Below are positions 1,904 to 50,356 of a stretch of DNA of 64,000 bases, in pieces. Origin of the DNA: Myxococcales bacterium (lineage in GTDB: Bacteria; Myxococcota; Polyangia; Polyangiales; Polyangiaceae). The notes beneath the pieces are model-generated. The model did no database searches and was not told where the DNA came from. It saw nothing but the letters and a program-made list of their open reading frames with translations. Location: contig PLXW01000060.1 in assembly GCA_003151595.1 (NCBI GenBank), positions 38,583 to 102,582 on the forward strand. The letters are read 5' to 3'. The translations under genes and the position numbers were made by a program. Numbering within the stretch: the first letter of the stretch is position 1; each line of letters begins with the position of its first letter.

Positions 1904-3475
1904 ATGACACGCTTTGCACTTGCTTCGTTGGCGACCTGCGCCGCCCTATCCAGCGCGTGGATGGCGTGCTCCAGCTCCGACGAAACGAGCGGCTCCAAGG
2001 ACGCCGGCCCTGCGACCGAGGGAGGCAATGGCGACGCCGCCCCGGCGGGCATCTTCACGCTGGCCATCCCCTGCACCGATTCGATCGCGTCGCTCTACGG
2101 CGACCCCGGCCCGCTCCCCGCGGGCAAGGGGGACATCATCAAGTGCGCGATCGATACCGACATCGCGAAGGCCGACATGCAGACGATCGCCAACAACGCG
2201 ATCACCACCGACGATCCGCCGGCGACGGAGATCACCTACCAAGGAAAGAAGTTCACGAGCGGCGCGCACGTCTACCGCATCCTCTATCGCACCGAGCGCG
2301 GCGATACGGCGAACACGCCCGGCTACTCCGTCGCGAAGGTTCTCATCCCCGACACGCCGCGGGCTGCGGGTCCGTTGCCGCTCGTCGTCGTCTCGCACCA
2401 GACCTCGGGCCAAGCAGGAGTCTGCGCGCCGTCCGAAGCGTCGAGCACCGTGAGCGCGCCATGGGCGATCAACGACATCGATACGTACCTATTCCCGCTC
2501 GTCGGCGGCGGGCTTCCGATCATCGAGCCCGACCTCGCGGGCTATTCGAACTTCGGCGCGGCGGGGAATCCGATGAGCGCCTATGCGCAGTATCAGGACG
2601 TCGGCAAGAGCACGCTCGACGGCGCGCGCGCGCTGGCGAAGATGTTCCCCAACGCGTTCAGCGGGAAGGTCGCGCTCGTCGGACACTCCCAGGGGGGACA
2701 CTCCTCGCTCTCGGCGCTCGCGATCCAGCCGACGTATGCGCCCGACGTGAAGATCGCCGCGGTCGCCACGCTCTCGCCGCTCTGGCTCTCCCAGCGCTCG
2801 TGGGGAGCGATTCTCTACGTACCGGGTGATTATCCGCTCGCGACGTCCCCCACGGCGGTCGCAGTCTCCATTTGGTATCACTACTCCCACGGCGAGCTGC
2901 TCGACGGGCCGGGGCACGGGCTGGATCCGTTCGCGGCGTCGAAGCAGGCGTTGATCAAGAGCTTCGTCAGCAACGACTGTGACTCTCAAGGGTGGGATGG
3001 TGCCACAGCGAGTGAGTACCCCGATCTCCAAGCGGCGGCGACGACCGCGGCCGATCTCTTCGACCCTGCGTTCATCAAATCGGTCAGCACCCGCGCAGCG
3101 CTGGGAGGCACTTGCCCTGCGGGCGACGCGGTCTGCGCGAAATGGATCCAGCGTTACGTCGAGGATCGCCCGCACCTCACGACCAAGGTCCCCGTGCTCG
3201 TCGAGTACGGGAGCGCAGACGAGACGATCCCGCCGGAGCGCATGGCGTGCGTGATCGAACGACTCAAGCAAGACAGCGTCGACTACACGTTCTGCCTGAA
3301 GCCGGGCGTTGGCCACGAAGGAATCCTGCGCGCGGCGGGGAGCGACGTCGCCGATTGGGTCGCCTACAAGACGATGGGCGAGGCGGCACCCCCGCCTTGT
3401 GCAGAGACCGACGTGAATCTCACCGACGACGCGGGCGTCGCGATTCAGTGCGCCGTGCCGCCTCCGAACGACTGA
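1904..3475 (+). CDS. Lipoprotein alpha/beta hydrolase, secretory-lipase-like
   Basis: A 523-residue secreted hydrolase. I chose the ATG at 1904 because it follows a GGAGG-type ribosome binding site and opens directly into a signal peptide with lipobox WMAC (Cys22). The open frame continues upstream to 1829 but gives a non-signal leader. A Ser/Gly/Asp-rich linker follows the Cys. The nucleophile elbow is GHSQGG with Ser262, and the likely partners are Asp439 (in GSADETIPP) and His471 (in GVGHEG), a complete catalytic triad in the usual order. The length and the lipase-like layout fit the secretory lipase (LIP) group of alpha/beta hydrolases. The substrate is not determinable; esters or lipids are likely. 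The gene ends 3 bp from the convergent kinase gene. Confidence 0.8.
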   Translation: MTRFALASLATCAALSSAWMACSSSDETSGSKDAGPATEGGNGDAAPAGIFTLAIPCTDSIASLYGDPGPLPAGKGDIIKCAIDTDIAKADMQTIANNAITTDDPPATEITYQGKKFTSGAHVYRILYRTERGDTANTPGYSVAKVLIPDTPRAAGPLPLVVVSHQTSGQAGVCAPSEASSTVSAPWAINDIDTYLFPLVGGGLPIIEPDLAGYSNFGAAGNPMSAYAQYQDVGKSTLDGARALAKMFPNAFSGKVALVGHSQGGHSSLSALAIQPTYAPDVKIAAVATLSPLWLSQRSWGAILYVPGDYPLATSPTAVAVSIWYHYSHGELLDGPGHGLDPFAASKQALIKSFVSNDCDSQGWDGATASEYPDLQAAATTAADLFDPAFIKSVSTRAALGGTCPAGDAVCAKWIQRYVEDRPHLTTKVPVLVEYGSADETIPPERMACVIERLKQDSVDYTFCLKPGVGHEGILRAAGSDVADWVAYKTMGEAAPPPCAETDVNLTDDAGVAIQCAVPPPND

Positions 3476-3478
3476 GCG

Positions 3479-5737
3479 TCAGCCTTTCACCGGGTGGAGC
3501 GTGCTCCGCATCCACTCGATGAGTCGTGGCATGTCGATCGGTTTGTCCAACCTGTGATTGGCTATCTGATCGAGGAAGGCCTTCGCGCGCGGCGTGAAGA
3601 TCCCTCCGCTCATGAACACGATCTTCTTCGCGAGGTCCGGCGCCGTCCGCGCGAGCTCCTCGTAGACATCGATCCCGCTGACTTCGGGCATCATGACGTC
3701 GCATAGAATGAGCTGGAACTCGGCCCCCGAGGCCAGCAACGTGAGCGCCTCGCGGCCCCCGGTGCAGACGGTGACGTCGAAGTGCTGGCGCGACAGGATC
3801 CTCTTCAGTGAGGTCCCGATCATCACCTCGTCGTCCACGACGAGCACGTGACCTTGCTTCACCGGAGCCGGAACCGGCTTGGGTGCGGGCGCGACGCTCG
3901 CAGGACGGGGAGCGGACGGGTTGAGGATCACGCTGAACGTCGTGCCCACCCCCACGCTGCTCGCAACTCTGATGTCGCCTCCGAGCTTGGTGATGATTCC
4001 GTGGCAGACCGAGAGCCCGAGGCCGGTGCCCATGCCGACGGGCTTGGTCGTGAAGAACGGATCGAAGATGCGCGGTAGCACGCCCGGAGGAATGCCCGCC
4101 CCTGTGTCTCGAATTTCGACGACGGCGCGACCGTCGCGATCCGTCGAGGTCACGATCCGGATCTCGTGCTTGTCGGCGCTCCCCTCCGGAATGGCGTGGG
4201 CTGCGTTCACGAGGAGATTCAGGAACACCTGGCCGAGCTGCCCGTCGTTGGCTTCGACCATCGGCACCGGTCCGTAGTCCTTCACCAGGCGCGCGCGATG
4301 GCGGATCTCGTTCCACGCCATGTTGACCGTGGAGTCGATCACCTTGCGGACGTCGACCGCGCCCGACGTCGTGTCGTCCGGCCGAGAGAACATCTTCAGA
4401 TCGCGAACGATGCGTCGTACGCGCTCGGCGCCGTCGCGAATGTCGGCCACCATCTCGATCAGCCCGGTGTGCGTCCCCTCGGCCGCGCCGGCGGCCAGCT
4501 CCGGGATCGACTCCTCGAGCAAGCTCGCGTTGGCGATCACGAACGAGAGCGGGTTGTTGATCTCGTGCGCGACCCCGGCGGCGAGCGTTCCCATGGACGC
4601 CATGCGGTCGGTGAGGAGGAGCCGCTGCTCCATCTCCTTCTGTTCCGTGATGTCGCGCACGAACCCGTGGAAGCCCGCGGCTTTCCCTTTGGCGCGGACG
4701 AGCAAGGCGCGGAGAAGGACGATCGATCCGTCCTTTCGAATCGCGCGCACTTCGAGCTCTTGTTTGCCCTCGGGGCCCATCTCCGCGCGCGCGGCGCCAA
4801 GGCGCGCGCGATCGTCGGGGTGGGTCAAGGAGCCCACGACGACCCCGAGGAGCTCGCTCGGGTCGTCATACCCGAGCATCTTGGCGAACACCGCGTTGAC
4901 GGACGTGTATCGCCCTTCCTCGTCGAGTCGCGCGATGCCTTCGACGGCGTGCTCGATGCCCATGCTCAGGTGCTCGTGCAGCTCACGCTCCGCGCGCACG
5001 CGTTCGGTGACGTCGCGGAAGCTCCAGACGCGCCCTTCGCTTGCGGTTCCGATTCGCCGCGGGCGCGAGTAGCGCTCGAAGACTCGCCCGTCGCGCAGCG
5101 CCTGGACTTCGTAACGCTCGGCCTCCTCTGCTTCGCCCAGCTCGCGCGTCATCGGGAGATGCTCGGCGTTCGGCAGCAGCAGCGGCTCGCAGAAGCGATC
5201 GATCTCCTCGGGCCCGGCGAAGACGACGGCGTCGTCGACCCCCCAGAGCTCCAGAAACCTTCGATTGAACGTGACGACGTGGCCGGTCTTGTCGGCGACG
5301 AGGAGCCCGTCGGCGGTCGATTCGAGCGTCGCTTCGACGAGCGAGAGGGACGCCTCCATCTCGTGCTCCACCCACTTGCGCTCGGTCGCGTCGCGGAGCA
5401 CGGCGGCGAACGATCGCTCGTCGTCGCGCGCGACGCACCACGCGATCCATCGGTACGTCTGGTCTTTGATGCGGCAGCGGCTCTCGAACCGGAGGGGGGG
5501 CGCGCCCGTGGAGAGCGCTGCGAGACGGGCCCGCGTGGCGGTGACTTCGTCGGGGTGCACGCGCTCGAACAGGTTCTCCCCGACCAGCTCGCCCGCCGAA
5601 TGACCGAGCACTGCGAGCGCTCCTTCGGCCGAACGAACGACGCCATCGAGATCGAACACGCAGAGAAGGTCGCCCGCGAGCTCGACGAGCCGCGCAAACC
5701 TCGACGCGTGATCGCGCGCCTCGGCGTGAGAGGGCAT
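3479..5737 (-). CDS. Hybrid sensor histidine kinase with three PAS domains and a C-terminal receiver
   Basis: A 752-residue, apparently soluble hybrid kinase. Three PAS segments lie at about residues 10-120, 130-250 and 260-370. They are followed by a HisKA H-box (GVAHEINNPL) with phospho-acceptor His391, and an ATPase domain with N-box (NLLVNAAHAI) and glycine boxes (DTGAGIP, GMGTGLGLS). A receiver domain has phospho-acceptor Asp680 in CDVMMPE. No transmembrane segment is visible, so the PAS domains probably sense a cytoplasmic signal or a partner. The upstream STAS-like gene stops at 5749. An alternative GTG start at 5752 would overlap that stop as GTGA, so the pair is an operon either way. 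The output partner is not adjacent. Confidence 0.9.
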   Translation of the reverse strand: MPSHAEARDHASRFARLVELAGDLLCVFDLDGVVRSAEGALAVLGHSAGELVGENLFERVHPDEVTATRARLAALSTGAPPLRFESRCRIKDQTYRWIAWCVARDDERSFAAVLRDATERKWVEHEMEASLSLVEATLESTADGLLVADKTGHVVTFNRRFLELWGVDDAVVFAGPEEIDRFCEPLLLPNAEHLPMTRELGEAEEAERYEVQALRDGRVFERYSRPRRIGTASEGRVWSFRDVTERVRAERELHEHLSMGIEHAVEGIARLDEEGRYTSVNAVFAKMLGYDDPSELLGVVVGSLTHPDDRARLGAARAEMGPEGKQELEVRAIRKDGSIVLLRALLVRAKGKAAGFHGFVRDITEQKEMEQRLLLTDRMASMGTLAAGVAHEINNPLSFVIANASLLEESIPELAAGAAEGTHTGLIEMVADIRDGAERVRRIVRDLKMFSRPDDTTSGAVDVRKVIDSTVNMAWNEIRHRARLVKDYGPVPMVEANDGQLGQVFLNLLVNAAHAIPEGSADKHEIRIVTSTDRDGRAVVEIRDTGAGIPPGVLPRIFDPFFTTKPVGMGTGLGLSVCHGIITKLGGDIRVASSVGVGTTFSVILNPSAPRPASVAPAPKPVPAPVKQGHVLVVDDEVMIGTSLKRILSRQHFDVTVCTGGREALTLLASGAEFQLILCDVMMPEVSGIDVYEELARTAPDLAKKIVFMSGGIFTPRAKAFLDQIANHRLDKPIDMPRLIEWMRSTLHPVKG

Positions 5738-5748
5738 CGCTTTCGCGA

Positions 5749-6186
5749 TCACTGTGAGCTCTTCGTGCTGCCGGCGAGGAAGTCGCGCAGCCGAGTCGAC
5801 TCGTCGGGCGCGAGGCTCTCGCTCAGCCACGCCTGGAGCTCGTTCGCGTCGGTGAAGATCCTTCGTCGCCCCGGGCTTCGCGCTTCGATGAGCAGCCGCT
5901 GAACTTGGAGCGTGAAGATCCCGCTCTCGTTGCCGAGGACGCCGTTGCGTTCGACGCGCGGGTTGTCCGACCGCATCAGATCGATGATTCGATTCGCGAC
6001 CTCGGGCGCGAAGAGCTGCGTCGCGCGGAGGTCGGTGCAGAGGACGACGCGCCGCGCGTGGAGCGTCCAGCGTTCGGTCACGAGCGCAGCGGTCTCCGCT
6101 TTGAAGCGCTCGACGTCATCGAGTGAGGGGGTCCCTTCGAACCGAAGCTCGATCAGCACACCGACGTGGCACTCGACCGTGATCAT
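5749..6186 (-). CDS. Small STAS/SpoIIAA-like protein
   Basis: A 145-residue cytoplasmic protein. I chose the ATG at 6186 because it begins a compact alternating strand/helix protein (MITVECHVGV...). The frame stays open to 6441, but the extra residues are Arg-rich and would consume the divergent promoter region. The pattern, with an N-terminal pair of strands, then a strand ending in CTDLRATQLF and an amphipathic helix, resembles STAS/SpoIIAA-like proteins often found beside sensor kinases. It is immediately upstream of the PAS kinase, with the stop touching the kinase start region, so it may modulate that kinase. The family call rests on pattern only. No phosphorylatable Ser motif can be asserted. 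Confidence 0.5.
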   Translation of the reverse strand: MITVECHVGVLIELRFEGTPSLDDVERFKAETAALVTERWTLHARRVVLCTDLRATQLFAPEVANRIIDLMRSDNPRVERNGVLGNESGIFTLQVQRLLIEARSPGRRRIFTDANELQAWLSESLAPDESTRLRDFLAGSTKSSQ

Positions 6187-6386: not shown

Positions 6387-9300
6387 TTGATCTCCAGTCG
6401 CATCGTTCGCAATCGCATTCCCAGCGCGCCGCCCGTCGCAACGAAAGCCGCCCCCGCCAGCCTCACGACATGGGTTGATCTCGTTCAACGGCTCGCCGCC
6501 GAGAAACCTGAGGAGCTCGCGTACACTTTTCTTCCGCCGGGGGGGACGAACGCGGGCGGCAAGGCCGGCGAGGGAGGGAAGGGGACCTCGCTCACGTTCA
6601 AGGCGCTCGACGAGCGGGCGCGCGCGATCGCGGCGCGGTTGCAGCAGGAAGGAGTGAAGGCGGCACCGGGCGCGCGCGCGCTCCTTCTGTACCCGCCGGG
6701 CCTCGAGTACATCACCGGGTTCTTCGGCTGCCTCTACGCCGGTGTGGTCGCCGTCCCGGCTTACCCGCCGGACCGAACGCGGCTGGCGCGAACGCTCCCG
6801 CGCATCAAGGCGATCGCGGCCGACGCGAAGGCGACGCTCGTTCTCACGACGCGCGCGATCCTCGCCGGCGGCGATCTGGAGGCCGCGCGCCTCGATCTCG
6901 ACGGCCTCACCACCGTGACGACCGACGACGCGCGCTCGAGCGACGCAGGCGCGTGGCGCGATGTCGGAGTGACGGTCGATTCCGTCGCGCTCCTTCAGTA
7001 CACGTCGGGGTCCACGTCGACTCCGTCGGGCGTCATCCTCACGCACGGCAACATGCTGCACAACGCGGCGATCCAGCAGCGCGCCTGGAGCCTCACGCCC
7101 GATTCGATCGGCGTCTCGTGGCTGCCGCTCTACCACGACCTCGGCGTCATCTCGTGTCTGCTCCAGCCCGTGTTCACCGGGTTTCACACGGTGATGCTCT
7201 CGCCGGCCGACTTCATTCAGAAGCCGCTCCGCTGGTTGGAAGCGATCGCGCGCTTCGGCGGAACCTTCTGCGGCGGTCCCAACTTCGCCTTCGAGCTGTG
7301 CGTGCAGAAGACGACCGAAGCGGAACGCGCGAAGCTCGACTTGAGCACGTGGGAGACGGCGTTCAACGGCGCCGAGCCGATCCGCCCCGAGTCGCTCGAT
7401 CGCTTCGCCGAAGCGTTCGCGGTCGCGGGCTTCAAGAAGAGCGCGCTCTATCCTTGCTACGGGCTCGCCGAGACGAACTTCGTCTCCGGCATGCGCCCGG
7501 GCGCCGGCGCGACGATCGGCCGCTTCGAAGTCGCGGGGCTCGAGCGCGGTGACGTCGTCGTCGCGACCGGCGACGAAGACGCGAGCGTGAAGACGCGCGC
7601 GCTCGTGAGCTGCGGCGAGATCCCGACCGAGCAGACGCTGGCCATCGTCGATCCGGAGACGACCCTCGCGTGCGCCGCCGGCCGCGTCGGCGAAGTCTGG
7701 ATCTCGGGCGGGAGCGTGGGGCTCGGCTACTGGGGGCGCCCCGAAGTCTCCGACGCGATCTTCCGCGCGCGCTCGTCTTCGTTCGGCGCGACCGAGTTCC
7801 TGCGCACGGGGGACCTCGGCTTCGTCGAAGGGGGCCACCTCTATCTGACGGGTCGCCTGAAGGACCTCATCATCGTCCGCGGCGCGAACCACTACCCGCA
7901 GGACATCGAGCACGTCGTCGAGCGGTCGCACGCAGCGATGCGCGCGGGTTGCTCGGCGGCGTTCGCCATCGAGCACGAGGACGGCGAGCGGGTCGTCGTG
8001 GTGCAAGAGGTCGCGAGCGCGACGCGCATCGAGCTCGACGCGGCCATCGAAGCGGCGCGCGCGGCGGTCCTTCGCGAGCACGAGATCGCGCTTCACGCGA
8101 TCGTGCTGGTGAAGCCGGGGACGATCGCGAAGACGACGAGCGGCAAGATTCAGCGACGCGCGTGCAAGGCGTCGTTCCTCGAAGGGACGCTGGACGTCGT
8201 GGTCGAGTGGCATCGCGGCGTCCGGCCGTCGTCGGCGCCGCGCGCGTCGGTCGCTGCGCCCGCCGTCGCGCCCGCAGCAGTCGGAGGGAAGACGCGATCC
8301 GCGGTCGCGATCCAGGAGTGGCTGGTCGCCAACCTCTCCAGCCAGTTGAAGGTGGACCCGCGCCACGTCGACGTGCGCGAGCCGTTCGCCAGCTACGGCC
8401 TCGACTCGCTGGCCGCGACCGAGCTCTCCGGCGCGCTCGAAGCGTGGCTCGAACGCCGCGTCGAGCCGACCGCGGTCTACGAGCACCCGACGATCGAAGC
8501 GCTCGCCAAGCACCTCGCGACCGGCCTCACGCTCCCGTCGTGGACGCCGCCGAACCCGGGCCGCCCCGAGCGTCGTCCGGCCGAGGAGCCGATCGCGATC
8601 GTCGGGATCGGTTGCCGATTCCCCGGTGGCGATTCGCCCGCCGCCTTCTGGTCGATGCTTCGCGACGGCGTCGACGCCGTGACCGAGGTCCCCGCGTCGC
8701 GATGGAACGCCGCGCGGATCTTCGACGCCGATGCGTCGCAGGCCGGCAAGACGAACTCGCGCTGGGGAGGCTTCCTCGGCGAGGTCGATCGCTTCGACCC
8801 GCTCTTCTTCGGCATCTCGCCGCGTGAGGCGCGCCACATGGATCCGCAGCAACGACTGCTCCTCGAGGTGGCGTGGGAAGCGCTCGAGGACGCGGGGCAG
8901 ATCCCCGACGCGCTGCGCGGAAGCGCGACGGGCGTGTTCCTGGGAATGACGACCGAAGACTACGGCCACATGCAGTGGAACCGCCCCGAAGCGATCGACA
9001 TGTACTCGGCCACCGGCACGCTCAGCAGCGTCGCGGCCGGTCGCATCTCGTACGTGTTCGACCTCCGCGGACCGAGCTTGTCGATCGACACGGCGTGCTC
9101 GTCGTCGCTCGTCGCCATCCACTACGCCTGCCAGAGCCTGTGGAACGGCGAGGCCACGATGGCGCTCGCAGGCGGCGTGAACTTGATGCTCACGCCGGAG
9201 AACGGAATCAGCCAGACCAAGCTCGGCGCGCTCTCGGCCGACGGTCGATGCAAGGCCTTCGACGCCAGCGCCGACGGCTTCGTTCGCGGCGAAGGCGCGG

Positions 9301-12300
9301 GACTCGTCGTGCTCAAGCCCTTGTCGCAGGCGGTGGCCGACGGCGATCGCATCTACGCGGTCATCCGCGGATCGGCCGTCAACCAGGACGGCCGTTCGAA
9401 CGGCCTCACCGCGCCGAACCCGCAAGCGCAGCGCGCGGTGCTCCGCGACGCCTACCGGCACGCGGGCGTCTCGCCGGGCGCAGTCCAGTACATCGAAGCG
9501 CACGGCACCGGGACGCCGCTCGGCGATCCGATGGAGCTCCAGGCGCTCGGTCGCGTGCTCGCCACCGATCGCGCTACGGACGACGTGTGCGCCATCGGAT
9601 CGGTGAAGACGAACATCGGCCACCTCGAGTCGGCGGCGGGCATCGCCGGCATCCTCAAGACCGCGCTCGCCCTCCACCACGAGTCGATCCCGGCGAGCCT
9701 CCACTTCAAGCAAGCCAACCCGCTCATCGCCTTCGAGAAGCTCCACCTCCGCGTTCAAGATCAGACGGCCGATTGGTTCCGTGGCGACAAGCCGCGCATC
9801 GCGGGCGTCAGCGCCTTCGGAATCGGCGGCACCAACGCGCACGTCGTCCTCGCCGAAGCCCCGGTGAGTCTTCGCGCCAACGTCCGCGAGCCGTCGCGTT
9901 ACGCGCTCCCCATCTCGGCTCGCACGCGCGACGCGCTCGTCGCCTTGGCGCGCGCTTACGCCGCGTCGTTGAACGTCGGGGCGCTCCGCGAAGTGCCGCT
10001 CTCCTCCATTTGCTACACCGCCGGCGCGCGGCGCGGACACATGGAGCATCGCCTCTGCGTCGTGGCGCGCGATCGCGCCGAGCTCGTGGCCCGGCTCACG
10101 GCGTTCGCCGCGGGCGAGATCGTGTCGGGCGTCTACACGGGGCGCGACGCGGGGCTCACGGTGAGCGACGTGGCGCCGGCGATGACGCACGACTCGCTCG
10201 CCGCGCTCTACGTGAGCGGTCACGACGTCGACTTCGCGGCGCTTCACGGCGGTGTGCGCGACGTGGTCACGCTCCCGTCGTACGCCTGGCAGCGCGCGCG
10301 TCACTGGCTCGCCGATCTCGCCCCTGTCTCCGCTGCCTCTGCGCCGACGCGCGAGGCGAGCGGCACGCACCCGCTCCTGGCGCGGCACATCGAGACGACC
10401 TCGCGCGAGCTGCTCTGGGAGGTCGACGTGACCCCCGACTCGCACGGGTTCGTCCAGGACCACGTCCTCGGTGGCGCGCGTGTCTTCCCGGGGCTGGCGT
10501 ACGTCGCCATGGTGCTCGCAGGGGCGAGCGAAGCGCTCGGTGAAGGTCCCTTCGAAGCGAAGGACATCGAGCTGCTCGCGGCGATGTTCGTCGGCGACGA
10601 CGAGGCGCGCGTCGTGCAGCTCTCGCTCGCGCCCGACGCGAACTTCGCAGGGGCCGCGTTCAGCGTCTCCAGCCGTGCGCGCACGGCGAGTCGCGCGAGT
10701 GCGCGCGCCGCGGAGTGGACGCTCCACGCCAGGGGGCGCGTCGAGCGTGCGAGCGACGATCGTGGAGCGGACGTGCACCTCGATGAAACGGTCGGCGACC
10801 GCTGCGACCAGCGCGTCTCGAGCGAGGCGTTCTACGAGAGCCTTCGCGCGGCCGGCACCGAGTACGGCCCGCGATTCCGCGGCGTGACGTCGATCGTGCG
10901 CCGCGACGGGGAGGCGCTCGGCGAGATCGTCGTGCCGGCGAGCCTCGCGTCCGAGCTCGGACCCTACTCGTTCCACCCCGCGCTCCTCGACGCCTGCGCG
11001 CAGGTCCTCCTGGCCACGCAAGCGTCGATGCACCCGTTCATGCCCGTTCGCATCGCGCGAATCCGGATCCATGCGCGCCCCCGCCTCGCGCCGGGCGACA
11101 CGCTTCGGAGTCACGCGCGCATGACCGACGGCAACGCCGATGACGCGGGCGCGCTCCGCGGAGACGTGCGCGTGTACGACGGCGCGGAGCTCGTCGCCGA
11201 GATCGTCGGCGCGGACGTCCAGCGCCTCGATCGGATGCAGCGCGCGCGTACGTCGGACGTCACGTCGTACGACCTCGTGTGGAACGCGACCCCGCGCGCC
11301 AGCGTGACCCGCGGAGAGCCCGCGACCTGGCTGCTCCTCACCGATCGTCAGGGGGTCAGCGATTCGCTGGCGTCGCAGCTCGTCGCGCGCGGCGATGCGT
11401 GCGTCTTGATCGCTTCACGCGATCACGGCGCCGAAACGATTCGCGCCGCCCTGAAGCAGGCCACGGCCGCGGGCCGACCGCCGCTTCGCACCATCGTGCA
11501 TCTCGCGAGCCTCGACGCGACCTCGCTCGCGCCGACGCACGCCGAGCTCCTCGCCGCGCGTGACCAGGGATGCGCGATGCTCGCCGCGATCACGCGAGAG
11601 CTCGTTGCGCTCCCGAACCCGCCGCGCGTGTGGACGGTGACGCGCGGAGCGCAGAGCGTGGGTGACGCGCAGGGCGAGGTCGCCGCCGCGCAAGCGCCGA
11701 TCTGGGGCTTCGGACGCGCGCTCGGCATCGAGTGCCCGCAGGTCTGGGGAGGGCTCCTCGATCTCGATCGCACCGAGTCGTCCCCCGACGCGCATGCGCG
11801 CGCCATCGTCGAAGCGGTCGACGGCGGCGCCGGCGAAGATCAGCTCGCCGTTCGCGGGGATGCCCGCTACGTGGCGCGGATCGTTCCGCGCACCGAGGCG
11901 GCGGCGGGCGCTCCGTTCTCGTGTCGCGCCGACGGCGCGTACCTCGTCACCGGTGGCCTCGGTGGGCTCGGACTCAGCGTGGCCAAGCGCCTCGTCGATC
12001 GTGGCGCGCGCGAGCTCCTCTTGATGGGGCGAACGCCGCTCCCTCCGCGCGCGGAGTGGGACCAGCTCGAAGGAGAAGTCGCCACGCGCGTCGCCGCCGT
12101 TCGCGCGATGGAAGCGCTCGGCGCACGAGTGCACGTCGCGGCCTGCGACGTCGCCGACCAAGCCGACCTCGCGCGCGCTCTCGCCGCCTTCTCCAGGACG
12201 ACGAAGACCCCGATTCGCGGAGTCGTTCACGCCGCCGGCGCCGGCCGCCTCTCGCCCGTCGCCGATCTGACGGACGCGGACTTCGACGCCGACTTCCGAC

Positions 12301-13997
12301 CGAAGGTGCTCGGCGCTTCGAACCTCGACCGTCTCCTCGAAGGCCAGCCGCTCGACTTCTTCGTCCTCTACTCGTCGCTGTCCGCCGTCCTCCCGTCGCC
12401 GATGTTCGCGGGCTACGCGGCGTCGAACGCCTTCCTCGAGGCGCTCGCTCGCAATCGTCACGCGCACGGAAAGCCGGCGCTCTGCATCCACTGGGGGATG
12501 TGGGCCGAGACCGGCATGGCCGCGCGCGCGCATGCGAACGCGAAGCTCGATGGACGGGGACGCGACTGGAAGTCCGGGAGCCTCACCAACGACGAGGCGC
12601 TCGCTCTTCAAGAGAGCCTCCTCGCGCAGCACGCCACCGTCGCCATCGCGACGCGCACGCAGTGGAGCGAGCTCGCGCGCGATCCCGCGTTCGCGCGCCT
12701 GCCGCTCCTCTCATCGCTCCTTCGCCAGACGACGGCGCCTGCGCCCGCCGCTCCCACGGCGTCCACGCCGCCGAAGCTCGATCGCGTCGCCCTCACCTCG
12801 AGCCCGCCCGAAGCGCAGGTCGACCTGCTCACGGCGTATATGACCTCGATCGTCGAAGAGGTGCTGGCCCTCGACGCGCGCACGCTCGACGAAAAGGAAC
12901 CGCTCGATACGGTCGGCTACGACTCGCTCGCGGCGGTCGACGTCCAGATGCGCATCGCGAAGGATCTCGCGCTCGACGTGCCGCTCCTCGGCCTGCTCCA
13001 GCGCGGCACGGCGCGCGATCTCGCGACGCGGATCGCGAAGCAGCTGCGCCCTGCGGCATCCACGGCGCCCGCCGCGCCGAGCGAGCCCGTGCCCGCGAAC
13101 GTGGAGCCCATCAAGTCCGCGCTTCGCCCGATCGCAACGGCGAGCGATCGCTCGATCGCGCCGCGCGAGATCAACGCCTCGCTCTCCATGTACGCCGCGC
13201 GCACGCCGACGCTTCCGCCGGCGACGCACACCAACAGCTACGCCCTCGGTGGCCGCGACGTCGTCCTCGTCGAGCCTGCGACGCCGTTCGAGTCCGAGCA
13301 GCGCGCGTGGATCGAGTGGGTGCGCGGACTCGCCTCTTCGGGGCGTCGCCCCGTCGCGATCTTCGCCACGCACCACCACGACGATCACGTCGGCGGTCTC
13401 GACGTCCTCTCGCGTGAGCTCGATCTGCCGGTGTGGATGCACAAGGAGACGTGGGCTCGCATCGGCGGCGCCCAGCCCGGGCGCCTGCTCGAAGATGGCG
13501 ACGCGATCCACCTCGACGGGCCCACGCCCGAAACGTGGACCGTGCTCCACACGCCCGGACACACGCACGGACACCTCTGCCTCTGGAACGCCGACACCAA
13601 GACGATCGTCGCCGGCGACATGGTTGCGAGCGTCGGGACGATCCTCATCGCGCCCGGCGACGGCGACATGCAGACGTACCTCGCGCAGCTCGATCGGCTC
13701 GCCAAGCTCGGCGCCGCGTGGGCGCTCCCGGCGCACGGCCCGGCGATCGAAGCGCCGACCGCCCTATTCCGCGAGTACATCCAGGAGCGCGTGACCCGCG
13801 AGCGGGACGTGTTTCAAGCGGTCGTCGACGCCGGCGCGCGCGGCGGCAGCCCCGAGAAGCTCGTCGGAGTCGCGTACGCCGATGCGCCCCCCCACACGTG
13901 GCCCATCGGGATGCTCAGCCTGCGCTCGCACCTCGAGAAGCTTCGGCGTGAAGGACGCGTCGTCGAGAGCGACGGTCTCTATCGCGCCTGCGGGTGA
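6387..13997 (+). CDS. FAAL-ACP-KS-DH-KR-ACP-MBL polyketide synthase lacking an AT domain
   Basis: A 2536-residue modular synthase starting at TTG. Domains in order: fatty acyl-AMP ligase (about 25-605; YTSGSTSTPSGV, GRLKDLIIVRG); acyl carrier protein (634-714; YGLDSL); ketosynthase (733-1158; Cys904 in DTACSSS, then EAHGTGT and NIGHLE). A linker region (1168-1308) follows where an AT would normally sit. Next are a dehydratase (1326-1624; HxxxGxxxxP and DACAQ), a pseudo-KR plus ketoreductase (1630-2050; TGGLGGLG, YSSLS and GYAASN), a second carrier protein (2141-2218; GYDSL) and a metallo-beta-lactamase domain (2266-2536; residues 2329-2334 HHHDDH, HTPGHTHGH, GDM) with a winged-helix tail as in LACTB2. 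Inferred role: activate a fatty acid, extend it once, reduce and perhaps dehydrate it, then release it hydrolytically. A malonyl transferase must act in trans. Confidence 0.93.
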   Translation: MISSRIVRNRIPSAPPVATKAAPASLTTWVDLVQRLAAEKPEELAYTFLPPGGTNAGGKAGEGGKGTSLTFKALDERARAIAARLQQEGVKAAPGARALLLYPPGLEYITGFFGCLYAGVVAVPAYPPDRTRLARTLPRIKAIAADAKATLVLTTRAILAGGDLEAARLDLDGLTTVTTDDARSSDAGAWRDVGVTVDSVALLQYTSGSTSTPSGVILTHGNMLHNAAIQQRAWSLTPDSIGVSWLPLYHDLGVISCLLQPVFTGFHTVMLSPADFIQKPLRWLEAIARFGGTFCGGPNFAFELCVQKTTEAERAKLDLSTWETAFNGAEPIRPESLDRFAEAFAVAGFKKSALYPCYGLAETNFVSGMRPGAGATIGRFEVAGLERGDVVVATGDEDASVKTRALVSCGEIPTEQTLAIVDPETTLACAAGRVGEVWISGGSVGLGYWGRPEVSDAIFRARSSSFGATEFLRTGDLGFVEGGHLYLTGRLKDLIIVRGANHYPQDIEHVVERSHAAMRAGCSAAFAIEHEDGERVVVVQEVASATRIELDAAIEAARAAVLREHEIALHAIVLVKPGTIAKTTSGKIQRRACKASFLEGTLDVVVEWHRGVRPSSAPRASVAAPAVAPAAVGGKTRSAVAIQEWLVANLSSQLKVDPRHVDVREPFASYGLDSLAATELSGALEAWLERRVEPTAVYEHPTIEALAKHLATGLTLPSWTPPNPGRPERRPAEEPIAIVGIGCRFPGGDSPAAFWSMLRDGVDAVTEVPASRWNAARIFDADASQAGKTNSRWGGFLGEVDRFDPLFFGISPREARHMDPQQRLLLEVAWEALEDAGQIPDALRGSATGVFLGMTTEDYGHMQWNRPEAIDMYSATGTLSSVAAGRISYVFDLRGPSLSIDTACSSSLVAIHYACQSLWNGEATMALAGGVNLMLTPENGISQTKLGALSADGRCKAFDASADGFVRGEGAGLVVLKPLSQAVADGDRIYAVIRGSAVNQDGRSNGLTAPNPQAQRAVLRDAYRHAGVSPGAVQYIEAHGTGTPLGDPMELQALGRVLATDRATDDVCAIGSVKTNIGHLESAAGIAGILKTALALHHESIPASLHFKQANPLIAFEKLHLRVQDQTADWFRGDKPRIAGVSAFGIGGTNAHVVLAEAPVSLRANVREPSRYALPISARTRDALVALARAYAASLNVGALREVPLSSICYTAGARRGHMEHRLCVVARDRAELVARLTAFAAGEIVSGVYTGRDAGLTVSDVAPAMTHDSLAALYVSGHDVDFAALHGGVRDVVTLPSYAWQRARHWLADLAPVSAASAPTREASGTHPLLARHIETTSRELLWEVDVTPDSHGFVQDHVLGGARVFPGLAYVAMVLAGASEALGEGPFEAKDIELLAAMFVGDDEARVVQLSLAPDANFAGAAFSVSSRARTASRASARAAEWTLHARGRVERASDDRGADVHLDETVGDRCDQRVSSEAFYESLRAAGTEYGPRFRGVTSIVRRDGEALGEIVVPASLASELGPYSFHPALLDACAQVLLATQASMHPFMPVRIARIRIHARPRLAPGDTLRSHARMTDGNADDAGALRGDVRVYDGAELVAEIVGADVQRLDRMQRARTSDVTSYDLVWNATPRASVTRGEPATWLLLTDRQGVSDSLASQLVARGDACVLIASRDHGAETIRAALKQATAAGRPPLRTIVHLASLDATSLAPTHAELLAARDQGCAMLAAITRELVALPNPPRVWTVTRGAQSVGDAQGEVAAAQAPIWGFGRALGIECPQVWGGLLDLDRTESSPDAHARAIVEAVDGGAGEDQLAVRGDARYVARIVPRTEAAAGAPFSCRADGAYLVTGGLGGLGLSVAKRLVDRGARELLLMGRTPLPPRAEWDQLEGEVATRVAAVRAMEALGARVHVAACDVADQADLARALAAFSRTTKTPIRGVVHAAGAGRLSPVADLTDADFDADFRPKVLGASNLDRLLEGQPLDFFVLYSSLSAVLPSPMFAGYAASNAFLEALARNRHAHGKPALCIHWGMWAETGMAARAHANAKLDGRGRDWKSGSLTNDEALALQESLLAQHATVAIATRTQWSELARDPAFARLPLLSSLLRQTTAPAPAAPTASTPPKLDRVALTSSPPEAQVDLLTAYMTSIVEEVLALDARTLDEKEPLDTVGYDSLAAVDVQMRIAKDLALDVPLLGLLQRGTARDLATRIAKQLRPAASTAPAAPSEPVPANVEPIKSALRPIATASDRSIAPREINASLSMYAARTPTLPPATHTNSYALGGRDVVLVEPATPFESEQRAWIEWVRGLASSGRRPVAIFATHHHDDHVGGLDVLSRELDLPVWMHKETWARIGGAQPGRLLEDGDAIHLDGPTPETWTVLHTPGHTHGHLCLWNADTKTIVAGDMVASVGTILIAPGDGDMQTYLAQLDRLAKLGAAWALPAHGPAIEAPTALFREYIQERVTRERDVFQAVVDAGARGGSPEKLVGVAYADAPPHTWPIGMLSLRSHLEKLRREGRVVESDGLYRACG

Positions 13998-14089
13998 ACG
14001 CGGCGCTCTCGCACCTCGTCCTTCGCGGGAATTCTCCGGACGCGATCGCTGTTCCCACGCGGCACGCGATGTGGAATGGAGAACGAGAG

Positions 14090-14773
14090 ATGACCTCGCG
14101 CCGAAATCGTGGCTCACCGTGGCTCCCCGCGTGGCTCGCGCTTCTCGTCGCCCCCGCGGGGTGCGCGTTCACGGACATCACGGTGCATCCGCCGCAGGGC
14201 GCGAACATCGTGGCTCCGTCGAACGTCGGTCGCGGCCGCGAGATCGTCGTCGCGATGCCGTTCACCGACGCTCGCGAGAACCGCGACCGCTGCGGCATGA
14301 AGAAGAACGGCTACAACTCGGACACCGCCGACGTTCACTGCGCCGTCCCCCCGACCGAGTGGGTCGCGCGCGCGCTGGCTGACGGCCTGGCGTCCTCCGG
14401 TTTCCGCGTCCTCCTCGATCAGCCCGGCACGTCGCCGTCGACGCCGCGCATTAACGGCGACGTGATCCAGTTCTTCGTCGAGCCGAAGATCGACGCGCTC
14501 ACGTTCGTCCCCGAAGCGGACATCGCCGTCACGCTGCACGTCACGTCGCCCACCGGGCTCGTCGCCGATCGCGAGTTCTATTTCAAGGCGGGCGAAGACA
14601 CGTTCTTCGGCACCGACGACACGTTCCAGGACTCGGTCGACGCCGCGACGAAGAAGGCGGTCGCTGCGATGATCGGCGCGATCACCGAGCTGCTCGATCG
14701 GTATCCGCAGCTCGGAGCGCTCGCTCCGCCCGTCGCGGTCTCCATGAGCGGCGAGAACGAGAGGCGACCATGA
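14090..14773 (+). CDS. Hypothetical lipoprotein, YajG-like
   Basis: A 227-residue lipoprotein. I chose the ATG at 14090, preceded by a GGAGAACGAGAG binding site; the frame is open from 13994 but lacks a signal peptide there. The signal ends in a lipobox-like APAGC. The mature part resembles YajG-type lipoproteins: an early strand MPFTDAR, a middle helix for a subunit-like fold, and a C-terminal segment (FQDSVDAATKKAV) typical of that group. Function is unknown; such proteins sit in the outer membrane or on the periplasmic face. It overlaps the next small lipoprotein gene by 4 bp (ATGA), so the two are co-translated. The distance from the synthase is about 90 bp, so joint transcription is possible but unproven. 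Confidence 0.6.
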   Translation: MTSRRNRGSPWLPAWLALLVAPAGCAFTDITVHPPQGANIVAPSNVGRGREIVVAMPFTDARENRDRCGMKKNGYNSDTADVHCAVPPTEWVARALADGLASSGFRVLLDQPGTSPSTPRINGDVIQFFVEPKIDALTFVPEADIAVTLHVTSPTGLVADREFYFKAGEDTFFGTDDTFQDSVDAATKKAVAAMIGAITELLDRYPQLGALAPPVAVSMSGENERRP

Positions 14774-14958: not shown

Positions 14959-16404
14959 CTAGGGCGCCTCGTACGGATCGTCGTCCGCGCTCGCCGGCGC
15001 AGGGTCGGCGACGGGCGAACTCGCGACCGGCGCGTTCGCCGCCGGTGCGCTTGCGACGGGCGTACGACGCTCGTGGTGACGCTTGACCGGCGGAGGAGGC
15101 GTCGGCGTGGGAGGCGACGGAGAGCTCGCTGCGGGACTCACCGGGACGCTGGACGCCGGGACCACCGCGCTGGCGATCGGCGCCGTAGGCGTCGGAAGAA
15201 CGGGGAGCATCGCTGCCGTCAGAGGTTCGGGCGCCGGCGCGGCGGCGGCGATCGGCCACTCGAGATGAAGCGGACCGGCGCGATGGACCACGGTCCCCGT
15301 CGCTACTCCGATCGCCGCCAGCGCGAGGATCGATCCTACGAGGTAGCCGGACATTCGCGGGCGCCGCGCCGGAACATCCGCGAGGATCGCCGCGGCCGTC
15401 GGCTTCATCGTGCCGACCCCGCTCCCGCTCCACGACGGCGATCGCGACTTCGGCACTCCATCGATCACCCGCGCGATCGACTCGGCCGACGCACGCGCGC
15501 TCGCCGATCCGAACGGCGCCAGCGCGCGCGCGAGCTCGGCGACGTTCGCGAAGCGCTTGGCGCTCTCCTTCTCCAGGCAGCGCGCGATGACGACCGCGAT
15601 CTCGCCCGGCGCATCCGCGCGCAGCTCGACGAGCGGGACGGGCGCCCCTTGAAGCACGCGCGCGCACACCTCGGTCGTCGACGAGCCGTCGAACGCGATC
15701 CGCCCAGTGAGCAGCTCATAGAGGAGCGTGCCCAGCGACCAGATGTCCGATCGCTGATCGGCGGTGGCCGACGACGTCATCTGCTCCGGCGACATGTACT
15801 GCGGCGACCCCATCACGAGCGACGGCAGCGTCGGGTGCGATCCCGGCTTGCTGGCACCCGACATCCCGCGCGGCATCTTCGAGATCCCGAAATCGAGAAC
15901 CTTCACGCACGGCGACCCGTCGGCGCGGTGGGTGAGGAAGAGGTTCGCCGGCTTGAGATCGCGATGGATGATCCCGAGGGCGTGCGCCTCGCCGATCGCC
16001 TCACACGCCTGGAGGAGCATGTCGACCGCAGCGGGGACGGGGAGGGGGCCGATCTCGCGAAGGAGCGCGTCGAGATCCTTCCCGGCGAGGTACTCCATCA
16101 CGAGATACGCGCGACCGGACACGACGCCCACGTCGAGCATCCGCACGACGTGCTCGCTGCGAATCTTGATCGCGGTCTTTCCTTCTTGAACGAAGCGCTC
16201 GACGACCGCGGGATCGTCGCAGCAATCCGGAAGAAGGATCTTGATGGCCACCATCTCGTCGAAACCCAGGTGCTTCGCGCCGACGACTGCGGCCATGCCG
16301 CCGACTCCGAGCACCGATCCGATGCGGTACTTGCCGTCGAAGAGCTCACCCTCGCGCGGGAGGTCGCGCATCAGGTTGGTGCTGGCCGGCGTCTCGTAAG
16401 TCAT
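14959..16404 (-). CDS. Membrane-anchored Ser/Thr protein kinase (PknB type)
   Basis: A 481-residue Hanks-type kinase. The ATG at 16404 was chosen because the kinase fold starts soon after it; the upstream extension to 16602 is Cys/Arg-rich and unlikely. The kinase domain (about 25-290) has the Gly loop GVGGMAAVV, the VAIKIL lysine, the catalytic HRDLKPAN with Asp149, and the DFG motif (LDFGISK) followed by SPQYMSPEQ. A single transmembrane helix lies at about 350-372. The segment beyond it, outside the cytoplasm, is Pro/Ala/Ser-rich and ends in DDDPYEAP, with no PASTA repeats. It probably signals through phosphorylation in response to an extracytoplasmic cue; substrates are unknown. It ends against the two convergent lipoprotein genes. 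Confidence 0.93.
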   Translation of the reverse strand: MTYETPASTNLMRDLPREGELFDGKYRIGSVLGVGGMAAVVGAKHLGFDEMVAIKILLPDCCDDPAVVERFVQEGKTAIKIRSEHVVRMLDVGVVSGRAYLVMEYLAGKDLDALLREIGPLPVPAAVDMLLQACEAIGEAHALGIIHRDLKPANLFLTHRADGSPCVKVLDFGISKMPRGMSGASKPGSHPTLPSLVMGSPQYMSPEQMTSSATADQRSDIWSLGTLLYELLTGRIAFDGSSTTEVCARVLQGAPVPLVELRADAPGEIAVVIARCLEKESAKRFANVAELARALAPFGSASARASAESIARVIDGVPKSRSPSWSGSGVGTMKPTAAAILADVPARRPRMSGYLVGSILALAAIGVATGTVVHRAGPLHLEWPIAAAAPAPEPLTAAMLPVLPTPTAPIASAVVPASSVPVSPAASSPSPPTPTPPPPVKRHHERRTPVASAPAANAPVASSPVADPAPASADDDPYEAP

Positions 16405-16649
16405 CCCACGTATCAAAGCGAATTCCGCGCCATGGTGCGTCACCTTCGGGGCCGCCGAGTCGAAGCGCTCGCGACCGCGCGAAACCGCGCGCTTTCGCCA
16501 CACGGGGCGTGCATGCGCCACGAAAAGTCGCGTGCACGCGATCGCGGGTCGTGTGCACGCGACCTCGCATCGCCAGGCGTCGAGGCGATCCCCCACCAGC
16601 ATGAACTAAGCGCCGACGCGCGCCCCGTTCGCCCCGTGCGTCCGGCGAT

Positions 16650-17603: not shown

Positions 17604-20600
17604 ATGCGGAAGTTGTGCCTGCCCCTCACTCTCATTGCGATCGCCTCAGCGGCCATCGCCATTGGCTGCGAAGACGGACCTGACCAGACGTTCCAGCCAG
17701 CCCCCTCGGGCGCGGCAGGAAACTGGAACAACGGCAACGTCGACGCTGCCGTTCTCACCGGCGTTACGGCCTCGTTCGACGCGGGTTTTCCCACGCAGAA
17801 CGCCGTCACGCTCTGCAGCACCGACCTGAAACGACAGCGCTGGGCATGGATGCTCGCGCAGCCGATCCAGCCGCCGCGCAAGTACGCCGGCATCGACCTC
17901 GCGAAGGACAACCTTTGGGACGGTCTGACGATCGACGAGGCGGAGTCGCCCCCGAGCGATCCGAACTCGCCCGAAGGCGGTCTCTGCCAGTCGACGCCGC
18001 TCGGCTTCGAAGGCACGTGCCCGTCCGGCATCGGCGGCTGCAACGGCAACTACTGGGGTAACAACCAGGAAGTCGGCTTCAGCTGGAACGTCGCGACGCA
18101 CGTCCTCGACCAGATGACGCTGAACCTCGGGTACACGGGGTCGCTTCAGACGAACAAGTACCCCGACAACAACGGGGAATCGCACGACTACACGCTCACG
18201 ATCGGCGACATCTATCGTCGCGACGGAGCGCCGTTCGAGATCAACTGGAACTCGAAGACGGATCGCAACACGAAGATCACGAACATCTTCAACGCGATCA
18301 TGTCGACGTACTCGCAGGCGGCCGGTGTCCCGTTCAACACCGCGAGCTGCACGAACGACGCGGCCTGCGTCGCTCCCGGTACGGTCTCCAACTGCCAGTG
18401 CCTTCACGCCACGACCGGCGACCTCACGCAGTGCAAGGCCGGCACCAAGGGCCAGTGCGGCACGACGAACTGCGCGACGGACGGCAACTGCCTCGTCAGC
18501 CCGAACAATGGTGGCGGCACCTACTTCGGCATCCGCCCGATGGTCGTTTACATCGTCGGCACCGCCGGCGTCCCGCAGCCGGCGCTCAGCACGCCCACGC
18601 TCATCTACAACTTCTTCACGAAGTGGGAGCCGTACTCGAACCTGAACCAGCTCGTGACGCTCGACGCCAACGGTCCGACCGCCTCCGGTATCCCGGTCGG
18701 TCAGCCGAAGTCGATCACGACGACCTGCATCCAGCAGATCGGTCAGAAGTTCTCGGACCTCCAGGCCAACTGCGTCCAGGTCACGGGCGACAAGGCGAAT
18801 CCGGACGGAGTTGACGCGGTCAACCTCAACAAGATTCTCCACGGTCTCAGCCACGACCAGGAGCACTGGACCGCGAACGTCCTCGGCGTGAACCAGAACT
18901 TCACGTCGGCGAAGGTCGCCGGGAACCCCGAGCTCGTCGTGCTCGACACCGACATCCCGCAGGGGGGTGACATCACCCAGGACTACGAGTTCGACCTCCG
19001 CGCCCGTGGCAACCTCGCGAACGACTTCACCGCCAACGGTGAGGACAACCGCGGTTCGTCGCTCATGATGATCGAGTGGTCGCGTCTCCTCCTCGAGGAC
19101 ATCGCGGTGCAGCTCTCGACCCCCGGCGTGTGGAACCCGACGGGCGCGCCGGTCAAGCCGAAGAAGCTCGGCGACCCGGGTTGCATCGGTTTCAACGGCA
19201 GCCACATCCCGAACTACGTCGCGACGAACAAGGCCCCGGCGACGTTCGGCTGCTCCGGCGTCGAGGGGCTCATCATCCCGGTGAGCTACGACGCGGACGG
19301 CGCGAGCGAGTTCGCGAACGATCCCGAGATCGCGACGATCGATCCGCTCGCGGATCTCAACCCGGCCAACAACTTCGACGCGATTGGTTTCTACAACAGC
19401 GTGCTGAAGCCGGGCGACCTCGCCGGCGCGCTCTGCATCGACGGCAACGCGTCGTCGGACTGCATCACATCGCTCGCCCTCTGGACGAACACGCTCAACC
19501 AGGTGGTTCGCGTCCTCGGCAACGGCGACATCAACAACCTCCCGTCCGAGCTCCAGGACCGTCGCTACTACTTCAAGTTCTTCGGACAGGCGTTCGTGAA
19601 GTACCTGAAGGCGTACGGCAACTACAAGACGCTGTACCCGACCACGGTCAACAACTTCCCCGACGGAACGGTCGGCGGCGGTCTCGGCCCCTCGGACGTC
19701 GTCAAGACGCAGATCGACATGGAGTCGCTGTTCTTCGACTACCAGGTCTCTCCGGGCACCGGCGGCGCTCAGTCGTACGACAAGTTCGAGTACGTGGACC
19801 GCACCACGATCGGCCAAGGGGCCGGCGGTACGGAGAACTACATTCCCTGGGACTTTGAGTACGGCTGCGACCTCCTCGGCGGCAACCAGCGCTACGACAA
19901 CTGGTTCCGTCGCATGGACCGCGAGGAAATCGGCCTCTACTCGGCGATGCTCGAGGACAAGGCGAAGACCCCGGGCGCGGAGAACAACGTCAACATCACC
20001 AACCTGTTCGGCAGCACGCTGCTCAACGGTAACCCGGCCGCGGGCGTCCCCGGCGCGTTCCCGAGCTTTGCGTGCGCAAGTGGCCAGGGGGGTGACCCGA
20101 CGGCGAACTGCGGCGGGAACGCTCCCCTCGATCCCAACCAGACCGGGATGCTGCCCTGCCTCGCTGGCGGGACGTGCGCGACCGCGGGCAACATCTGCGT
20201 CACCGCCAAGAGCCTCGAGAACGGTCTCGTTCAGGCGTGCGGCACTCCGTGCGACTTCACGACGTACCCGGCCTCGGGTTGCCAGAGCAACTGGCAGGTG
20301 TGCGCGGACGACCTGCAGGGCGGCGGCGAAGGCTGCGTGGCTGCCATGATGGACAAGAACGGTCACCAGGCCAACGCGCTCCCCTACCTCGCCCACTACC
20401 CGGGTGCGTGGTCGCGGACGCCGTTCTCGGCGGGCCACAGCCCGATCACCATCGCGGACGCGGACAAGCACCCGGAAATCGGCGTCGCTCACGTCAACGT
20501 CCCGAACTTCAAGGGCGGCCCGTACACCAACAGCCCGACGGTTCAGTCGCAGGGCGCGGACGGCGGAATGTCTTGCGCGACCGGATGGACCTTCGGCGCC

Positions 20601-21257: not shown

Positions 21258-21283
21258 TGGAAGCGCACGTGGAGAAGAAACAG

Positions 21284-41047: not shown

Positions 41048-41050
41048 CCG

Positions 41051-42895: not shown

Positions 42896-42912
42896 CCCGC
42901 GCCGGATGAGCC

Positions 42913-44322: not shown

Positions 44323-44744
44323 GGAGCATGGCGACGATGGCGAGCAAGAGGGAACCGATGGTCTTCTTCCCGTGGGAGCGGCATCGCGGCGTGCGATCGC
44401 TCTTCATCCGGGCGAGGGCGCGTCAGGTGCTGCTCGTGGTGTGTGCTCTGACCGCGTTCGCCTGGCTCCGGGCGCGCCAGCGGCACGTGTCGCAGGTGCG
44501 GGCCACGCGGGCCACGATCACCCGGACGATCTACGCCATCGGGGCCTGGCGCGCCGATCACGATCGCGGTTGCCCGGGGTCGCTCGCCGACCTCGTCTCG
44601 GGCGGATACCTGTCCGAGCTTCCGCGCGACGCCTGGGCGCGACCGCTGCGCATGGTGTGTCCGGGACGCAAGGACCCGCAAGGGTTCGACCTCTCGAGCG
44701 ATGGCCCCGACGGCGAGCCGGGGGGCCTCGATCGGGTGGAGTAA
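44319..44744 (+). CDS. GspG-like protein lacking a prepilin signal
   Basis: A 141-residue protein between gspF and gspG. Its start overlaps the gspF stop (ATGA), with alternative ATGs at 44328 to 44358. The C-terminal half (TITRTIYAIGAWRADH, CPGSLADLVSGGYL, DAWARPLRMVCPGRKDPQGFDL, SSDGPDGEPGG) closely follows the calcium-loop end of GspG pseudopilins. However, the N-terminus has only a hydrophobic helix (VLLVVCALTAFAWL) after a basic stretch, with no G/FTLLE prepilin peptidase site or Glu5. It could be a membrane-tethered assembly factor or a degenerate duplicate of GspG. Role inferred from position only. Confidence 0.7.
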   Translation: MRSMATMASKREPMVFFPWERHRGVRSLFIRARARQVLLVVCALTAFAWLRARQRHVSQVRATRATITRTIYAIGAWRADHDRGCPGSLADLVSGGYLSELPRDAWARPLRMVCPGRKDPQGFDLSSDGPDGEPGGLDRVE

Positions 44745-44782
44745 CAGAGCGACGACTCTTGGCCTCATCGAAGGAGAAGCAG

Positions 44783-45190: not shown

Positions 45191-45199
45191 CCGCCAGCC

Positions 45200-45943: not shown

Positions 45944-45946
45944 GCC

Positions 45947-48848: not shown

Positions 48849-48867
48849 AGCGAGGAGAGATAGCGGC

Positions 48868-50355: not shown

Positions 50356-50356
50356 C

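Follow-up and report, generated by a model that had tools for sequence, protein, structure and literature searches.

How does a bacterial polyketide synthase (PKS) that ends in a metallo-beta-lactamase (MBL) domain let go of its product? In type I PKSs of bacteria, the enzyme credited with this step is mostly a serine hydrolase or a reductase. The question is raised here by one gene in the window, that is, the whole 64,000-nucleotide stretch of contig PLXW01000060.1 that we analysed. It is a single uninterrupted frame (Table 1) whose product, protein entry P0001, contains no thioesterase (TE, PF00975), no reductase and no other release domain in a Pfam scan. We consider it likely, and the best explanation of the observations below, that the MBL is a zinc-dependent cis-thioesterase which releases a two-carbon-extended fatty acid from a single-module FAAL synthase lacking an acyltransferase (AT).

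Table 1. Features of the synthase gene, its flanking genes and related standalone MBL loci (nucleotide positions in the window unless a locus is named)
Feature	Position	Strand	Residues	Basis or remark
Secretory-lipase-like gene	1961-3475			flank of synthase
PAS histidine kinase	3479-5752			flank of synthase
Whole synthase gene, FAAL-ACP-KS-DH-KR-ACP-MBL-WH	6387..13997	+	2536 aa	TTG start
Fatty acyl-AMP ligase (FAAL), predicted starter loading	6495..8198	+	37-604	PF00501 E 1.3e-59, PF23024
ACP1, GLDSL 671-675	8316..8516	+	644-710	PF00550, motif
Ketosynthase (KS); DTACSSS, EAHGTGT, KTNIGHLE intact	8586..9707	+	734-1107	PF00109/PF02801, motifs
Junction without AT	10116..10256	+	46 residues	sibling alignment; no PF00698
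Dehydratase (DH); HVLGGARVFP 1359-1368, DACAQ 1535-1539	10368..11243	+	1328-1619	PF21089, PF14765, motifs
Ketoreductase (KR); GGLGGLG 1856-1862, YAASN 2010-2014	11934..12509	+	1850-2041	PF08659 E 4.4e-57, motifs
ACP2; GYDSL 2177-2181, Ser2180 for phosphopantetheine	12819..13052	+	~2145-2222	PF00550 (two stretches), motif, model helices
ACP2-MBL linker, poorly conserved, low model confidence	13053..13181	+	2223-2265	identity, model
MBL domain	13224..13736	+	2280-2450	PF00753 E 9e-23; AlphaFold2 model
HxHxDH metal-binding motif	13371..13388	+	H2329/H2331/D2333/H2334	invariant in relatives
BLACT_WH winged helix, near C-terminal end	13848..13973	+	2488-2529	PF17778 E 1.2e-8
Probable lipoprotein	14091-14773			~90 bp behind synthase; Lipoprotein_16 match below cut-off
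Ser/Thr kinase	14959-16602			flank of synthase
Standalone MBL loci with thiolase context	L118-L146, L166-L187

The order of domains in P0001, as given by Pfam and motif scans, is FAAL-ACP-KS-[no AT]-DH-KR-ACP-MBL-winged helix. The original prediction was right about the KR-ACP-MBL end and about the FAAL, both of which Pfam and motifs bear out, and it overlooked the missing AT. With a FAAL-ACP pair upstream of the KS and intact motifs, P0001 is a FAAL-primed type I PKS, and the active-site motifs are in place in the KS (Cys/His/His), DH (His/Asp), KR (Tyr/Asn) and both ACPs (serines). NCBIfam FAAL models hit residues 27-604, at scores below their curated cut-offs; the KS linker runs from residue 1111 to ~1310, the PDB relatives of the dehydratase are the CurF, CurJ and CurK DHs, and Pfam and motif scans found no ER domain. 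The TTG start is that of the ORF list and is uncertain in its exact position, with conservation by eye from about residue 26. A search with residues 2180-2536 returned, among 7986 scored candidates, P0001 and four further long fused proteins (P0003-P0006); these candidates were preselected by shared words and length, a step through which distant fusions could escape. A fifth further fused protein, P0007, is a 391-residue ACP-MBL piece, and P0004, without FAAL and ACP1, is likewise a piece. By eye, the DH motif HxxxGxxxxP is intact in P0001 and P0003 and ends in Ala rather than Pro in P0004, P0005 and P0006 (P0004 also lacks its Gly), so that dehydration may be altered in the latter three.

The five long fused proteins all lack the AT cleanly. 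Counted in the alignment between common flanking positions of KS and DH, the interval is 46 residues long in P0001, 48 in P0003 and 31 in each of P0005 and P0006, against 343-350 in the AT-bearing siblings P0237, P0185, P0191, P0170 and P0168; P0004 stands outside this alignment, and its Pfam list is likewise without an AT. P0001 is thus not a cis-AT PKS: the Pfam scan finds no PF00698 anywhere in it, nor is there an AT between KS and DH, while the post-AT motif is retained as LPSYAWQRxRHWL. Loss of the AT presumably predates the split of the five proteins. By eye, an AT domain stands in the entries of most of the 120 relatives listed for residues 1-2240, and a change from cis to trans AT in the fused clade is possible. 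Since no AT is present in cis, malonyl units would have to come in trans.

The synthase stands alone in the window, with no AT, PPTase, KS or other PKS family found by Pfam among the 43 other called genes. The probable lipoprotein gene behind it could be read as 13994-14773, overlapping the synthase stop; by our own reading, the ATG at 14091, behind a purine-rich stretch, is the likelier start. Its homologues occur in 4 of the 108 genomes of the family of genome G450, and because the flanks fetched around them contain no synthase or MBL match, we did not count it as part of the system. A scan for promoters and terminators gave nothing above chance. Elsewhere in the window lie two consecutive long proteins with lipoprotein-like starts (17604-24892), of which that of 1217 residues has no Pfam match and that of 1211 residues matches the Met-zincin DUF4953, and a type II secretion run (38549-50923) with matches to secretin, T2SSE, T2SSF, T2SSG-like, J, K, PilM_2 and T2SSM.

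The position of the MBL bears on its function. Two single-module siblings, P0237 and P0185, scan as FAAL-ACP-KS-AT-DH-KR-ACP-TE, with PF00975 after the last ACP. In these and in P0191, also TE-bearing, 309-310 residues follow ACP2; in the fused P0001, P0003, P0005 and P0006, linker and MBL together make up 309-328. The MBL occupies the seat of the TE in the TE-bearing single-module siblings, and P0001 answers to the description of a PKS with no TE of its own in which an MBL, in the TE position, is the candidate for release. Among the five siblings compared, those without a release domain, P0168 (50.5% identity to P0001; it ends after the KR, with no second ACP) and P0170 (47.3%; 51 residues after ACP2), are nearer to P0001 than the three TE siblings (42.9-46.5%); many listed relatives of the synthase part are longer, multi-module proteins. 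As the nearest compared siblings are TE-less, replacement of a TE is not required, and the MBL may instead have joined a synthase that had no TE to begin with. These two siblings could also be taken to favour a different role, in which the MBL is a cis-fused editing hydrolase of type II-like function, clearing stalled or misprimed chains from ACP2 or ACP1, with release left to some other enzyme. An AT-less module that is loaded in trans could depend on the removal of wrong groups from its ACPs, and a premature off-loading role is proposed for NftF1 in the relevant section of PMC10265476. P0001, however, has no other release domain, and its MBL is terminal and of TE-like length; we regard an editing role as rather unlikely.

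All seven metal ligands of the MBL (H2329, H2331, D2333, H2334, H2392, D2411 and H2450) are present, as the original prediction had it for the HxHxDH site at 2329-2334, and none of them varies among the 6 fused and 119 standalone sequences compared. A profile search, the kind of check suggested with that prediction, gave both the PF00753 and the PF17778 match of Table 1, and P0001 has the MBL fold with a BLACT_WH tail. The AlphaFold2 model of the domain has a mean pLDDT of 87; that of ACP2 and MBL together (mean 80) shows the helices of the ACP and, beyond a linker of low confidence, the MBL elements of the first model. Between P0001 and its four long relatives, identity is 84-94% for the KS, 78-92% for ACP1, 83-90% for the MBL core, 71-87% for the FAAL, 67-83% for the winged helix, 65-82% for ACP2, 60-72% for the KR part, 58-78% for the DH and 24-72% for the ACP-MBL linker (P0004 is left out of the FAAL and ACP1 ranges, as it lacks these domains). 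The MBL core, outranked only by the KS in three of the four comparisons and third, behind ACP1, in P0003, is among the most conserved domains of the synthase.

Conservation of this kind goes together with change at a few positions. F2301, M2351, A2409 and G2508 are fixed in the six fused MBLs, and at each of them at least 108 of the 119 standalone relatives share another residue. The domain therefore changed after fusion, and the four positions may be read as a sign of a changed role. Such a change could have led to another kind of release than plain hydrolysis, namely cyclisation, decarboxylative release or transfer, and ActIV is described as a cyclase as well as a thioesterase in the portion of PMC10265476 that deals with it. 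By our reasoning, however, the product of a single KR-DH module offers no second carbonyl for cyclisation unless the module iterates, and we find release of these other kinds quite improbable.

LACTB2 (human, 4AD9) is the nearest solved relative of the P0001 MBL by sequence and fold, and the best match of the model. The two have in common the fold, the winged-helix tail, HxHxDH and the further ligands. The name LACTB2-like, given to the domain in the original prediction, is justified to that extent, with two reservations: the Asp of motif I is a Glu in P0001 (Glu2296), as it is in all 119 standalone relatives compared, and the activity reported for LACTB2 is that of an RNase (PMC4770246, in the section consulted). 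The same section names N116, E118, H216/R217 and R220 as needed for RNase activity. In our alignment, where by our own reading the numbering of the paper is shifted by one, N116 falls in a gap, E118 becomes Ala and H216 becomes Glu2467, while R217 and R220 are kept. We rejected the P0001 MBL as an orthologue of the human RNase on the strength of the motif I Glu and of the failure to keep N116, E118 and H216. A role on RNA or another phosphodiester, with the fusion regulatory or incidental, could still be argued from the nearness to LACTB2, from the two kept arginines, from the standalone family, which has His at the H216 position in 118 of 119 members, and from some sources, which name standalone relatives LACTB2 or ribonuclease. 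In the six fused MBLs that position is Glu (five) or Asp (one); these changed residues, together with the position in a synthase, make a nuclease role very unlikely.

The relatives of the domain may be tied to acyl metabolism. The nearest non-fused relatives of the MBL are free-standing proteins, mostly of about 280 residues (59-67% identity in the best 120), whose database names include Polyangiaceae and Labilithrix. A tree was made of 149 MBL sequences: 6 fused, two standalone sets of 60 and 53, and 30 from the phylum of Archangium. In it, the fused domains group in a single clade (support 1.0, stem 0.36), and a branch with support 0.997 separates the Archangium-phylum set. Rooted on that set, the fused clade is nested in a clade of 15 tips (0.938), with support of 0.083 for its placement inside it. 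The fused MBL arose once from the standalone family. In 41 of 52 fetched loci, which are the best matches from a sample of the phylum of G001 and from the family of G450, the standalone gene follows within 150 nt, and on one strand with it, an acetyl-CoA acetyltransferase (thiolase) gene, a partner checked by Pfam and NCBIfam in three loci. In the remaining 11, the thiolase is further off in one, a flank of at least 1 kb has none in nine, and the flank is too short in one; for one of the nine (L117), the longer locus L147 shows a thiolase 1.7 kb away. Acyl-CoA hydrolysis is possibly the function of the standalone family, and a thiolase neighbour does not prove the substrate of the MBL. The phylum of Archangium is different: none of the 30 fetched loci (the best of 119, one of them the source of the query) has a thiolase, and all 30 (L087-L116) match a NUDIX-like segment. 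In L164 (7982-9511) and L165 (7690-9147), this segment and the MBL belong to one protein, of which the segment forms the N-terminal part; its Pfam NUDIX match is weak, and it matches the NUDIX hydrolase 3QSJ at E 6e-13. An HD-domain gene precedes the NUDIX-MBL gene on the same strand in both loci.

We also considered fusion of an MBL gene that already adjoined a PKS, and rejected it because no PKS matched beside the standalone genes in 19 larger loci: the part from FAAL to ACP2 had no match in these (5-17 kb). Neither had KS, FAAL or ACP2 in a set of 116 fetched loci, save for one weak FAAL match in L013. Together with the thiolase context, the lack of PKS matches nearby favours capture from an acyl-CoA setting over the fusion of adjacent genes. 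The more specific proposal, that a Polyangiaceae-like clade of AT-less, fatty-acid-primed synthases captured by fusion an MBL of acyl-CoA metabolism as a zinc cis release domain and, in the same lineage, lost its cis AT, we judge to have about an even chance of being correct.

The fused arrangement is real, rare and conserved. The four further long proteins are 67-82% identical to P0001, and the MBL domains of the other fused proteins are 77-88% identical to its own. Of the 120 matches listed for residues 1-2240, as counted by eye, P0001 and P0003-P0006 alone have PF00753 in their entries, and nine other proteins have PF00975. MBL matches were found in 76 of 108 genomes of the family of G450 (E up to 1e-70), 39 of 377 sampled genomes of the phylum of G001 and 119 of 195 of the phylum to which the Archangium genome G005 belongs (E up to 1e-50), in sets that overlap and whose genomes may be incomplete. 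The best identity listed in these searches is 64%, against 77-88% among fused MBLs, so no fused copy is seen in the searched genomes; at E up to 1e-112, that 64% match is the only one in 183 genomes of the order of G450. A query of KS and linker matched 34 of the 108 family genomes (E up to 1e-100), and with a best identity of 59% no orthologous synthase is seen among them. The host itself belongs in or near that family, since the Lon protein of the window is 95% identical to that of G624, 92% to G552 and 90% to G450. A plasmid search gave matches below 60% identity only, and a short-pattern scan of contigs gave distant MBLs only (best 41%). Among the matches listed from the open-licence PMC literature, a scope outside which most subscription papers fall, none showed a bacterial PKS with a fused MBL. 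The many synthases of the same build that would speak against the original view of the fusion as unusual were not seen; we found five further proteins, and nothing above 64% in genomes. We give next to no credence to an artefact of assembly or annotation: two of the fused proteins, P0007 and P0004, are pieces and the window comes from a single contig, but the frame is uninterrupted, and the junction common to all four further long proteins rules out an assembly chimera.

We favour a cis-thioesterase, then, because of the TE position of the MBL, the lack of any other release domain, the invariant metal site and the thiolase-linked relatives. The FAAL would activate a fatty acid as acyl-AMP and load it onto ACP1, and the KS would condense this chain with a malonyl unit on ACP2, which FabD or a trans-AT would have to supply, as no acyltransferase is encoded in cis. 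After what we take to be a single round of extension, KR and DH would yield a 3-hydroxy- or 2-enoyl-ACP, there being no ER found. The MBL, probably taken over a single time from a family of standalone LACTB2-like hydrolases found in the host's own bacterial family, would use zinc to activate water and hydrolyse the ACP2 thioester, giving a free fatty acid longer by two carbons and so doing the job of the alpha/beta-hydrolase TE in the TE-bearing siblings. Our searches returned no activity data for the MBL family of P0001. If the proposal is correct, the release domain was gained by fusion with a gene of ordinary acyl-CoA metabolism. What a synthase makes is set by how its chain is released. 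A metal-dependent domain acting in cis would give the engineering of fatty acids and polyketides a new off-loading module that is portable and presumably insensitive to inhibitors of serine hydrolases. It would also open to testing the function of the standalone MBL family, which is widespread and uncharacterised.

We know of no cis-fused metallo-thioesterase of a PKS described before, and one of the P0001 type would be the first; PqsE is a stand-alone protein of another subfamily. The closest systems in build are the single-module TE synthases P0237, P0185 and P0191, which share with P0001 the order of domains up to ACP2, at 43-47% identity over it, and a C-terminal domain of similar length, and which differ in having a cis AT and an alpha/beta-hydrolase TE (PF00975) where P0001 has no AT and an MBL. 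By analogy with characterised enzymes, the MBL is best read as working like an MbL-type thioesterase. Fungal MbL-TEs are physically discrete and separately encoded in the sections of PMC5591372 and PMC4591646 that describe them, in agreement with what had been said of them in the original prediction. In the group V non-reducing PKSs of fungi (AptB, MdpF, GedB), as there described, an MBL-fold enzyme likewise releases the chain from the ACP of a PKS without a TE; compared by description, their MBL is discrete, whereas that of P0001 is fused in cis to a bacterial, reducing, fatty-acid-primed synthase. Nearer in taxonomy is HliE of Haliangium ochraceum, proposed in the pertinent part of PMC4768178 as an MbL-type thioesterase for haliangicin. 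Like the MBL of P0001, it is myxobacterial and would release the chain of a type I PKS; compared by description, it differs in being a separate protein of 303 residues. The NFAT-133 paper (PMC10265476), in the passage on this subject, cites ActIV and MrqD as MBL-fold thioesterases, offers NftF1 as a trans-acting TE or esterase, a less certain precedent, and states that no MBL-fold TE is documented from type I PKSs. Outside PKSs, human MBLAC2 is an MBL-fold acyl-CoA thioesterase according to the relevant part of PMC7949124. The word "lactamase" is nowhere in the main text of a 2025 review of FAALs (PMC11837247). The cyanobacterial olefin synthase (FAAL, ACP, KS, AT, KR, ACP, ST, TE), as treated in that review, resembles P0001 in being FAAL-primed, in extending a fatty acid once and in ending with a hydrolase, and differs from it in having an AT, a sulfotransferase and a TE.
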